The position numbers and the translations under genes are program-made. Shown here piece after piece: positions 49,301 to 55,300 of a stretch of DNA of 64,000 bases (positions are counted from its first letter, which is position 1; every line of letters begins with the position of its first letter). The notes under the pieces are model-generated. The model had not been told where the DNA came from. It was given only the letters and a program-made list of their open reading frames with translations, and did no database searches. Source of the DNA: Apostichopus japonicus (taxonomy: Eukaryota; Echinodermata; Holothuroidea; Aspidochirotida; Stichopodidae); assembly GCF_037975245.1 (NCBI RefSeq), contig NC_092575.1, positions 10,696,001 through 10,760,000 on the forward strand, given 5' to 3'.

Positions 49301-52300
49301 AATGGGGCTATAAAGCTACTCTCTGGTTAAATCATATTGCTTAAACCTTTTATTTCTAATTTTAACTAGGATGCTGTTATCAAGCTTGGTGATTTTGGAT
49401 TTGCCAAAGTGGACGATGGAAATCTGAAGACCCCTCATTTTACCCCTTACTATGTAGCACCTCAGGTAAGATAAAACTTTATGACTTGTTTGGAATCGTT
49501 GTTCCACTGGAATAATACCATTTCAGCAAAATGTCACAGAAAAAAATATATTGCGTGTTAGGAAACTTTATTATTTCTCACTCAACATAACCAGTAGTAC
49601 TTGAAGTACAAAGAGTCAAGTGCCTCTGGAAAGTTTTTTTTTATGTAAGAGCAGTTAATTGTTTGTATCGAAAGGAAAGCTGAGTTCTCAATTTACCTGC
49701 GGAACAGGGATTATTCACTAAAATGGTACAACCAGTACTGCCATTGTAGTAACATATATGCTATTTAAGATTTTGAACACCACCTTTCATAGAGTTTCTT
49801 GTATTCCCACTGTTAAAACTCATGAATATTGCTATTGTGCAATGCTGTACCTTTTACCGAATCATAGGTCACCATTGCACAAAATACACTTAATTGTCCT
49901 TAAGCCTCAAGCTAACATTTGCTACCAAAGTAACATACATTTAACATGTCAAAACTGTAATGAATCAGTCTTTAAGATACCTTAAAATCAGATTTTTTTT
50001 TCCCACAAAAAATTTGAAATTTGGAATTTTCGTACAAGTATATACTCTGTATGCTTAGTATGGCTACTTAAACTTTGACCTATTAACAATGGAAAATTGT
50101 CTGGGAAATTTGCAACAATTTGGAAAAGAATGAAGAAATTTCTCACCAGAATGTGATTAGAGACTTCCTAAGGTCACTGGTGTGAATCCCCAATTCTAGC
50201 GAAAATGAAATGTTTAGCTAAGAGAGAAGAAATGTTAACGATCTGTTTGGCTACTGCAAAAACCCTATGTAGGTAAAATATGAAAGTAAGAGGGTTTCAT
50301 GTTTTGATCCTAGCAGGATCTTCTTCAGACGCTAACTGAAGTCAAAACAGACTAAAGACACACAAAGAGAGACAGATTGACTAGCTACTAAAGAAATAAG
50401 ATTTCTTCTCAGCATCTGCTCCACCAAGAAGTTTCTTACAAAATTTCCTGTCTTTTATTGTGCTTACAATTGTGAGACTATAGAAGAAACCAAGATTATT
50501 GGAAGCATATTGACTCCTCACACATGCATTAGTAGCTAGAAATTTTCATAACTAGACAGATATTATTATATAATATATGTGGATGTAAAGTAACCTGAAT
50601 TTCCATTGATTTTAGATTGCCAATGTTTTTCTGTTTTAGGTTTGGTTAAAATCACCTTTCAATTTTTTATTTTGATCTATAGGTTTTAGAAGCTAAAAGG
50701 AAATCTCAGTCGAAAGACTTTGGTGTGAGACAGTCAGACCCGTACACCTATGACAAAGTAAGAGAAAGTAGATCCGTTGTTCCAGTGTTAGGAAGCGGAG
50801 TACCTTTATATAGTTTAGAGAGTGAGAGAGTTTGGTGTGATACAGTCAGACCCATACACCTATGACAAGGTAAGAGAAAGTAGATCCATTGTTCCAGTGT
50901 TAGGAAGTGGAGTACCTTTATATAGTTTAGAGAGTGAGAGAGTTTGGTGTGATACAGTCAGACCCATACACCTATGACAAGGTAAGAGAAAGTAGATTCG
51001 TTGTTCTAGTGTTAGGAAGCAGAGTTATATAGTTCAGAGAGTGAGAGAGTTTGGTGTGATACAGTCAGACCCATACACATATGACAAGGTAAGAGAAAGT
51101 AGATCCATTGTTCCAGTGTTAGGAAGTGGAGTACCTTTATATAATTTAGAGAGTGAGAGAGTTTGGTGTGATACAGTCAGACCCATACACCTATGACAAG
51201 GTAAGAGAAAGTAGATCCGTTGTTCCAGTGTTAGGAAGCGGAGTACCTTTATATAGTTTAGAGAGTGAGAGAGTTTGGTGTGATACAGTCAGACTCATAC
51301 ACCTATGACAAGGTAAGAGAAAGTAGATCCATTGTTCCAGTGTTAGGAAGTGGAGTACCTTAGTTTAGAGAGTGAGAGAGTTTGGTGTGATAAACAAGGT
51401 AAGAGAAAGTAGATCCGTTGTTCCAGTGTTAGGAAGCGGAGTACCTTTATATAGTTTAGAGAGTGAAAGACTTTGGTGTGATACAGTCAGACCCATACAC
51501 CTATGACAAGGTAAGAGAAAGTAGATCCATTGTTCCAGTGTTAGGAAGCTGAGGACCTTTACATAGTTTAGAGAGCGAGAGAGTTTGGTGTGATACAGTC
51601 AGACCCATACACCTATGACAAGGTAAGAGAAAGTAGATCCGTTGTTCCAGTGTTAGGAAGCTGAGGAGCTTTACATAGTTTAGAGAGCGAGAGAGTTTGG
51701 TGTGATACAGTCAGACCCATACACCTATGACAAGGTAAGAGAAAGTAGATCCGTTGTTCCAGTGTTAGGAAGCTGAGTACCTTTATATAGTTTAGAGAGT
51801 GAAAGACTTTGGTGTGATACAGTCAGACCCATACACCTATGACAAGGTAAGAGAAAGTAGATCCATTGTTCCAGTGTTAGGAAGCTGAGGACCTTTATAT
51901 AGTTTAGAGAGCGAGAGAGTTTGGTGTGATGCAGTCAGACCCATACACCTATGACAAGGTAAGAGAAAGTAGATCCGTTGTTCCAGTGTTAGGAAGCTGA
52001 GTACCTTTATATAGTTTAGAGAGCGAGAGAGTTTGGTGTGATACAGTCAGACCCATACACCTATGACAAGGTAAGAGAAAGTAGATCCGTTGTTCTAGTG
52101 TTAGGAAGCAGAGTTATATAGTTCAGAGAGTGAGAGAGTTTGGTGTGATACAGTCAGACCCATACACCTATGACAAGGTAAGAGAAAGTAGATCCGTTGT
52201 TCCAGTGTTAGGAAGCGGAGTACCTTTATATAGTTTAGAGAGTGAGAGAGTTTGGTGTGATACAGTCAGACCCATACACCTATGACAAGGTAAGAGAAAG

Positions 52301-55300
52301 TAGATTCGCTGTTCTAGTGTTAGGAAGCAGAGTTATATAGTTCAGAGAGTGAGAGAGTTTGGTGTGATACAGTCAGACCCATACACCTATGACAAGGTAA
52401 GAGAAAGTAGATCCATTGTTCCAGTGTTAGGAAGTGGAGTACCTTTATATAATTTAGAGAGCGAGAGAGTTTGGTGTGATACAGTCAGACCCATACACCT
52501 ATGACAAGGTAAGAGAAAGTAGATCCGTTGTTCCAGTGTTAGGAAGCGGAGTACCTTTATATAGTTTAGAGAGTGAGAGAGTTTGGTGTGATACAGTCAG
52601 ACTCATACACCTATGACAAGGTAAGAGAAAGTAGATCCATTGTTCCAGTGTTAGGAAGTGGAGTACCTTAGTTTAGAGAGTGAGAGAGTTTGGTGTGATA
52701 AACAAGGTAAGAGAAAGTAGATCCGTTGTTCCAGTGTTAGGAAGCGGAGTACCTTTATATAGTTTAGAGAGTGAAAGACTTTGGTGTGATACAGTCAGAC
52801 CCATACACCTATGACAAGGTAAGAGAAAGTAGATCCGTTGTTCCAGTGTTAGGAAGCTGAGGACCTTTACATAGTTTAGAGAGCGAGAGAGTTTGGTGTG
52901 ATACAGTCAGACCCATACACCTATGACAAGGTAAGAGAAAGTAGATCCGTTGTTCCAGTGTTAGGAAGCTGAGGACCTTTACATAGTTTAGAGAGCGAGA
53001 GAGTTTGGTGTGATACAGTCAGACCCATACACCTATGACAAGGTAAGAGAAAGTAGATCCGTTGTTCTAGACTTCTAGTGTTAGGAAGCAGAGTTATATA
53101 GTTCAGAGAGTGAGAGAGTTTGGTGTGATACAGTCAGACCCATACACCTATGACAAGGTAAGAGAAAGTAGATCCGTTGTTCCAGTGTTAGGAAGCTGAG
53201 GACCTTTATATAGTTTAGAGAGCGAGAGAGTTTGGTGTGATACAGTCAGACCCATACACCTATGACAAGGTAAGAGAAAGTAGATCCGTTGTTCTAGTGT
53301 TAGGAAGCAGAGTTATATAGTTCAGAGAGTGAGAGAGTTTGGTGAGATACAGTCAGACTCATACACCTATGACAAGGTAAAGAGAAAGTAGATCCGTTGT
53401 TCCAGTGTTAGGAAGCTGAGGACCTTTACATAGTTTAGAGAGCGAGAGAGTTTGGTGTGATACAGTCAGACCCATACACCTATGACAAGGTAAGAGAAAG
53501 TAGATCCGTTGTTCCAGTGTTAGGAAGCTGAGGACCTTTACATAGTTTAGAGAGCGAGAGAGTTTGGTGTGATACAGTCAGACCCATACACCTATGACAA
53601 GGTAAGAGAAAGTAGATCCGTTGTTCTAGACTTCTAGTGTTAGGAAGCAGAGTTATATAGTTCAGAGAGTGAGAGAGTTTGGTGTGATACAGTCAGACCC
53701 ATACACCTATGACAAGGTAAGAGAAAGTAGATCCGTTGTTCCAGTGTTAGGAAGCTGAGGACCTTTATATAGTTTAGAGAGCGAGAGAGTTTGGTGTGAT
53801 ACAGTCAGACCCATACACCTATGACAAGGTAAGAGAAAGTAGATCCGTTGTTCTAGTGTTAGGAAGCAGAGTTATATAGTTCAGAGAGTGAGAGAGTTTG
53901 GTGAGATACAGTCAGACTCATACACCTATGACAAGGTAAAGAGAAAGTAGATCCGTTGTTCCAGTGTTAGGAAGCTGAGGACCTTTATATAGTTTAGAGA
54001 GCGAGAGAGTTTGGTGTGATACAGTCAGACCCATACACCTATGACAAGGTAAAGAGAAAGTAGATCCATTGTTCCAGTGTTAGGAAGCGGAGTACCTTGA
54101 TATACTCTAGAGAGTGAGAGAGTGTGTCTTTATATTTAAAGGCGAAATAAAACACTAGAGTGTTACTATATAGTTAAATCTTTTGAGTTTTCAAGATATT
54201 TATTTTTACAACATGCTGAAAATCTGGAATGCTCCTTTAAGGCTTAATTGATGATGTTATCAGCTCCTAAGTGAAAGTCTTAAGTTTCAAGTTAATCCAT
54301 CACTTTATTAATACTAAACTCCACCAAAAGTGTTTCTATTAACTTCCTATAAACAATAGAGCACCACCAAGTGACATTTAAACACCATATATCCTTTACA
54401 AACTTTTAATGGATTGTTAACTAGCTGTTTGATGCCATTTGATGCAATCAAAGTGTTCCAATTGAGTTTTGTGTTGCATCTGAGGAAATGGACTACCTAA
54501 TGGTCTACGTGTTAGTCTAATTAGTCCAGTCCCTTTAATTTGATGAGCCTCGGATGTTTAAAGGGTACTTTCTCACAAATTAAAAGTCTTATAGAACCTG
54601 ACAGTGATTTGTGTGGATTGCTCATTACTGTTCAAGCAAACAGTCTCTAATAACCAAGCTGACAGTCCAACATAAACTAGCATTGCCTGTACAATGTCAA
54701 TCAACACACTGCCTGTTTGTATCGCGGAACCTACGAATAAAACCCAAAACGAACAACTGCATCTTTCATTTGTTAATGCATCATGTGTTTTAGAGCTGAT
54801 ATTTCTTGCTGAAACCACTTTTTAAGTGCCAAATATTTTCACGATTTCTCTGGAAAACTTGGGTCCGTGGAATTTGATTCTGGTCAAGAAATATCAGCAC
54901 ATGAATGCTGCCTAAGCTGTGACTTTTGTCCCGTCCTGACATATCCTTTAAATATTCATCTTCTTGTTGCTTCTTTAGTGTTGTGACATGTGGTCCCTCG
55001 GTGTCATCATCTACATAATGCTCTGTGGATATCCTCCATTTTGTCCGACCACGCCAACCGATGTACCTTTGACTCCGGACATGCAGCAAAAGATAATGTC
55101 CGGGCAGTATGAGTTCAGCAAGGCGGATTGGTCTCATATATCTTCCAATGCTAAAAATGTCGTTGATAGGTGAGTTCCACCTCAAAACTTTTTGCAGTCA
55201 GTCGCGGATAGTATTGGAATAGTCACGAAATTCGAAGGAAGCATTTTCTCATGTTTGAATTGTTAAGGAAAGTGTTTCATTGTTATGATGTGAAGAAGTA

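Follow-up and report, generated by a model that had tools for sequence, protein, structure and literature searches.

This study was concerned with a 3.4-kb tandem array in a 64,000-nucleotide stretch of the genome of the sea cucumber Apostichopus japonicus (assembly GCF_037975245.1, contig NC_092575.1, positions 10,696,001 to 10,760,000, forward strand), which is referred to here as the window and numbered from its first letter. The array lies in intron 5 (a numbering that presumes one unseen N-terminal coding exon) of a kinase gene which we take to be MAPKAPK5-like (MK5-like), a label that depends on comparison with human MK5. Its units repeat the end of coding exon 5 together with the 5' splice site. 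By its sequence anatomy the array is a mirage, an already known kind of structure that recurs in this genome. The term denotes a minisatellite spanning an exon-intron boundary and was described in amphioxus (PMC3087553, available text). The reading that we favor, with a probability of nearly 0.8, is that the array arose by a duplication straddling the exon edge, that it is neutral or nearly so, and that the first donor would be chosen by its position.

Anatomy and origin of the array

The 31 units of the array are of several lengths: 17 are 112 bp, seven are 107 bp, two each are 91, 113 and 115 bp, and the last, which is fused to the flank, was cut at 119 bp. A full unit, unit 1 included, joins 43 nt that resemble the end of the exon to 69 nt that resemble the start of the intron. 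The unit therefore starts inside exon 5 and runs through the donor into the intron, as an earlier sequence-only reading of this DNA had proposed. The exon-like stretch is partly missing in units 7 and 19. Splice signals are found in many units, with GT at the boundary in all 31 and AAG/GT in 30. The array occupies 80% of the 4.2-kb intron, of which 854 bp remain after it. Matches to the unit were sought in the whole genome (671,581,487 bases in 35 contigs) by a search that skips very common words, and all 31 matches were at this locus.

Two observations suggest that the array derives from the exon. First, units 8, 11 and 20 keep a putative fossil junction, GTGAAAGACTTTGG, whose counterparts are TCGAAAGACTTTGG in exon 5 and GTGAGAGAGTGTGT in the native intron past unit 31. 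Secondly, the same three units are nearest to the exon, with 3 differences in 43 nt compared with 4 in the next listed units. The two ends of the array bear a short, imperfect similarity, GAAAGACTTTGG in the exon and GAGAGAGTGTGT in the intron. Judging from these letters, the initial event would have been a tandem duplication across the boundary of exon 5 and intron 5, between short similar stretches. Inside the array, large blocks are duplicates of each other, and two of them are listed in Table 1.

The edges of the cluster escape homogenisation. Unit 1 differs from the consensus at 4 of 43 positions in its exon part and at none of 69 in its intron part (P = 0.02), and the tail of unit 31 has also diverged. 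Arrays show such divergence when homogenisation reaches the interior and spares the edges; at the 5' edge, selection that protects the exon would have the same effect. The array would otherwise be neutral or nearly so, the sole constraint being that unit 1 stays intact. Coding potential of the array was considered and rejected, as its longest stop-free runs are 66 codons on the forward strand and 84 on the reverse strand.

Table 1. Features of the array and its surroundings (window coordinates)
Feature	Position	Strand	Basis or remark
Mirage array, 31 tandem units, main length 112 bp, 22 distinct sequences	50715..54124	+	Repeat analysis and unit alignment
Units 2-31, 30 decoy-bearing copies	50827..54124	+	Last exon-like bases of decoys 50869 to 54048
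Internal block, copied 1308 bp downstream at 52217-52975, 4 mismatches in 759 bp	50909..51667	+	
Internal block, copied 559 bp downstream at 53375-54052, 4 mismatches in 678 bp	52816..53493	+	
Outer edge of unit 31 (GATATACTCTAG...), diverged from other units, passes into unique intron	54099..54124	+	Alignment columns 102, 108, 110
Putative fossil junction GTGAAAGACTTTGG, exon letters AAAGAC kept	51463..51476 (unit 8), 51799..51812 (unit 11), 52771..52784 (unit 20)	+	
Coding exon 5, 75 nt, phase 0 at both ends, 25 residues	50683..50757	+	Final 43 nt form the exon part of unit 1
Genuine 5' splice site AAA/GTAAGA	50755..50763	+	U1 pairing -4.5 kcal/mol
In-frame TGA, codon 61 of the exon-5 frame, met by any read-through beyond the genuine donor	50863..50865	+	Donors 2-31
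Acceptor-like GTTGTTCCAG of unit 1, weak, one per unit	50776..50785	+	31 sites
First AATAAA past the array	54146..54151	+	3 polyadenylation hexamers between the array and the intron end (854 bp)
Next coding exon, directly after the array-bearing intron	54979..55169	+	tblastn, Pfam, reading frame

Decoy donors and the choice of the splice site

The genuine donor reads AAA/GTAAGAGA at the junction 50757/50758. The sequence-only reading had estimated about 30 decoys that fit the donor consensus better than the genuine site, and 30 were counted in units 2-31. Pairing energies with U1 small nuclear RNA (snRNA) were computed with a standard U1 sequence and not with one read from this genome. Of the decoys, 27 read AAG/GTAAGA and score -9.5 kcal/mol against -4.5 for the genuine site, as had been proposed. 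The remaining three (units 25, 30 and 31) have a different spelling, AAG/GTAAAG, through an extra A, and score -6.8. The exon 5 donor is the weakest U1 match among the six donors of the gene that were scored, the five others ranging from -6.6 to -11.0 kcal/mol; by a donor frequency table the exon 3 donor is weaker than that of exon 5 (2.34 compared with 3.99 bits). The clustering of decoys in the array is far beyond chance: it holds 27 of the 52 forward-strand GT sites in the window with an energy of -9.5 or below, in 5.3% of the window length. Between 46900 and 60000 only four sites outside the array are as strong, all of them genuine donors, and no comparable cluster of strong donor sites occurs in the gene's other introns.

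Use of any of the 30 decoys would lead to a premature stop, and the first donor is the sole one that preserves the frame; the sequence-only reading had pointed to the same TGA for the donor of unit 2. The reading frame and the lancelet cases discussed below suggest that the first donor is used. Splicing may take it because it emerges before the others and closes a short exon (75 nt) whose acceptor is established; the later, mostly stronger donors would stay mostly silent.

Several points weigh against this reading. First, the use of the first donor in MK5 is drawn from the reading frame and from the lancelets, and in human IFI6 minisatellite donors lying downstream are indeed used (PMC4526556, available text). 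Secondly, the decoys should win by U1 pairing and likewise by the frequency table, and donors 2 and 3 would give exons of 187 and 299 nt, which are not over-long for exon definition. Third, local folding leaves the choice unsettled, with an effect of about 1 kcal/mol against a U1 gap of 5 kcal/mol. Under one setting the genuine donor was unpaired at 0.70, 27 of the 30 decoys at 0.045-0.141 and the other three at 0.47-0.55, and under a second setting the genuine donor was at 0.131 with five of the 30 decoys higher. Masking of the decoys by a hairpin (ACCT/AGGT pairing near the boundary, noted by eye) was rejected, as about 1 kcal/mol is too small. Recursive splicing was also rejected by eye, the boundary having no preceding pyrimidine tract. 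Lastly, low variation of the donor letters in units 2-31 (no substitutions over nine columns, and three insertions) leaves some room for selection.

Selection on the decoys was examined across the four arrays of this kind described here. Their four variable donor columns looked low in number, and no claim was kept after pooled circular-shift tests with wrap-around alignment, in which donor columns compared with others gave P = 0.14 by columns and P = 0.036 by counts. Bases inserted inside the donor number three in the MK5 array and seven in the array called L019 below. The donor columns are not convincingly conserved, and these sequences give no convincing sign of selection on the decoys.

A bolder form of the favored reading would have the first, weaker donor beat the 27 stronger copies every time, with donor-side mirages recurrent in an echinoderm genome, the choice made by position and timing, and leakage to decoys restraining kinase output to a degree set by copy number. 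We regard this as unlikely. If the first donor does always win, splice-site choice would be set by position and timing and not by U1 pairing.

Unproductive splicing could instead make the array a rheostat, in which some transcripts use decoys and are lost to nonsense-mediated decay, so that less kinase is made, the effect growing with the number of units. The premature stops that follow from all 30 decoys and from all 30 unit exons are consistent with this, as are the much greater strength of 27 decoys and the use of downstream repeat donors in IFI6 (PMC4526556, available text). However, a premature stop is the default result of reading through into an intron, the donor conservation tests are weak, and lancelet mirages are described without aberrant mRNA in the available text of two reports (PMC3087553, PMC3902484). 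We consider a rheostat improbable.

The sequence-only reading had suggested that the array acts as a landing strip for U1 or as a buffer against premature polyadenylation (telescripting), with arrayed donors binding U1 and shielding the 4.2-kb intron from premature cleavage. The 27 strong U1 sites within 3.4 kb, a clustering unusual for the gene, would suit this role. No AATAAA or ATTAAA was found in the array, where 5.5 hexamers are expected from composition, and three lie in the following 854 bp. However, the units are copies of one 112-bp sequence, so that this absence is a single draw, and depletion of hexamers was dismissed as a signal. In addition, three units carry a weaker donor, the donor columns are not clearly protected, and the other introns of the gene do without such a cluster. 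The presence of the sites is what remains in favor of telescripting, which we hold to be very unlikely.

The units may also be nascent exons or introns, as proposed for lancelet globins (PMC3087553, available text). Every unit contains both an AG and a donor, and the sequence-only reading had noted an acceptor-like site per unit and suggested that units could be spliced as small exons. The site is indeed present in all 31 units, but in two spellings (TTCCAG in 24 and TTCTAG in seven), and it is weak, with 10 pyrimidines in 20 positions in the two units scored against 14-17 at three of the gene's genuine acceptors. Moreover, all 30 unit exons would begin TGT TAG in the exon-5 frame. The suggestion of unit exons was not borne out, and the creation of exons or introns here is highly improbable. 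An assembly artefact in the number or order of the units, which the sequence-only reading had raised, could account for blocks that recur at offsets of 1308 and 559 bp with few mismatches, but is hardly credible given 22 distinct sequences among 31 units and a genome that closely matches an Apostichopus japonicus assembly from PacBio HiFi reads of mean length 14.7 kb at 64-fold depth, able to span 3.4 kb (PMC10344927, available text).

The host gene and arrays at other kinase exons

The kinase exons were located on the forward strand by tblastn, with human MK5 as query, at 46957-47334, 48661-48756, 49370-49468, 50683 onward, 54982-55170, 56379-56504 and 58428-58532. The exon at 50683 alone was a weak match (E = 0.20) beside neighbouring exons at 1.5e-17 and 2.2e-11. 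It was nevertheless assigned to the gene because it sits between strong neighbours and keeps the frame. Pfam Pkinase was found in two of three exon translations and not in the 25-residue exon 50683-50757. When the joined exons were compared with PDB by phmmer, MAPKAPK3 and MAPKAPK2 were best (E = 6.7e-47). The next exon begins at 54979-54981 with TGT (Cys), where human MK5 has Ser (KCCDMW compared with KSCDLW). A second minisatellite in the gene, 37 bp by 41 at 56775-58289, lies in a later intron and touches no exon found, and a short pyrimidine-rich repeat (TCCCTTCTCCC) lies at 56594-56638, about 90 bp past the exon ending at 56501. For U1 itself, 42 genome matches were scored, each spanning model positions 1-166; all 42 are in one same-strand cluster (C20:29019462-29087219), many about 856 bp apart.

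Arrays at other kinase exons were surveyed at 40 loci (G+C content 38.0%), hand-picked from 134 Pkinase matches before their flanks were viewed. These were drawn from the upper half of the list and were mainly of partial length; near-complete matches were left out, as were a few of the partial ones. The loci hold 44 kinase exon matches, whose ends only approximate exon ends. An array from Tandem Repeats Finder (period at least 15) overlapped an exon end in three of the 44 matches, at three of the 40 loci (L019, L035 and L036), which represent two independent events. In L019, 31-bp units repeated 16 times carry the exon end with CCT/GTAAGT; 14 of the 15 sites located, the genuine one included, score -7.3, and at least one diverged unit escaped detection. 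In L035 and L036, 70-bp units repeat the exon end with AAG/GTGAGC, and 12 and 11 donors were located. These two loci, paralogues on one chromosome (C11, near 6.33 and 9.61 Mb), align over 2.4 kb with 92.6% identity and share the mirage with differing unit variants, which offers an opportunity to time array turnover. Their kinases are presumably CDK-like. All three arrays are donor-side, as in MK5, and in each a read-through past the first donor reaches an in-frame stop ahead of the next donor. A 24-bp self-match at a further locus (L048) had hits on both strands, is not a mirage and was dropped.

Exon edges were not favored targets in this sample. Of random positions at the 40 loci, 6.4% fell within an array (period at least 15, at least three copies), and three of 88 exon-match edges were in arrays compared with 5.7 expected (P = 0.18 for so few). 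The array rate at exon edges is not above that at random positions, and thus blind minisatellite birth suffices. Under the favored reading the exon edge would have been struck since this genome makes minisatellites everywhere, and not because the edge is special. Minisatellites are dense here: the seven larger arrays, listed by hand, make up about 11% of the window, and in 221 kb surrounding kinase exons the share is 6.6%. A count of donor motifs in genome arrays of period 111-141 bp (740 compared with 372 for the reversed pattern) involved overlapping places and is not taken as evidence.

Significance and comparison with known systems

The MK5 array is of interest for several reasons. First, donor choice among nearby equal sites is usually studied with constructs, and here 31 near-identical natural donors stand in one intron, a natural test case for correct splice-site selection. 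Secondly, the genuine donor is weaker than most of its copies, and the same genome holds two further independent cases. Third, mirages would be extended from lancelets to echinoderms, where they may simply follow minisatellite density. Lastly, this is a farmed species, and existing HiFi and RNA data could reveal donor use, variation in unit number and any tuning of expression. A search of the open-licence literature for sea cucumber minisatellites linked to both splice sites and introns gave no report; other publications may describe mirages in hosts besides lancelets.

Intron gain by internal tandem duplication with AG/GT (Rogers 1989; Gao and Lynch 2009, as cited in the available text of PMC3087553) resembles the present case in that the duplicated stretch holds a splice signal. 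It differs in that the MK5 array has no predicted usable new intron or exon.

Human IFI6 (6-16) has a repeat unit that is reportedly much shorter than that of MK5. In both genes many donors are offered to one exon by a minisatellite. In IFI6 two downstream repeat units serve as donors (PMC4526556; Turri, Cuin and Porter 1995 as cited there, available text). However, the repeat donors of IFI6 encode isoforms, whereas all 30 MK5 decoys lead to a premature stop and do not continue an open frame.

Known structures of the same kind are the amphioxus mirages. The BflGb6 mirage (150-160 bp) is on the acceptor side and has six and three units in two haplotypes, the BflGb9 mirage (157 bp) is at the 3' boundary of an exon, and that of Adh3 has units of 10-72 bp (PMC3087553, available text). 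Further examples are PGBD5 (60 and 108 bp) and troponin C (PMC3902484, available text). Regular splicing was suggested by the Adh3 data and by reverse transcription PCR of the globins, and cluster edges had escaped homogenisation there as well (PMC3087553, available text). The MK5 array repeats the 3' boundary of an exon, as BflGb9 does. It differs first in its host, a sea cucumber and thus of another phylum than the cephalochordates to which the reported distribution belongs, and secondly in its size of 3.4 kb and 31 units, compared with the six and three of BflGb6. Lastly, in MK5 27 decoys outscore the genuine donor.

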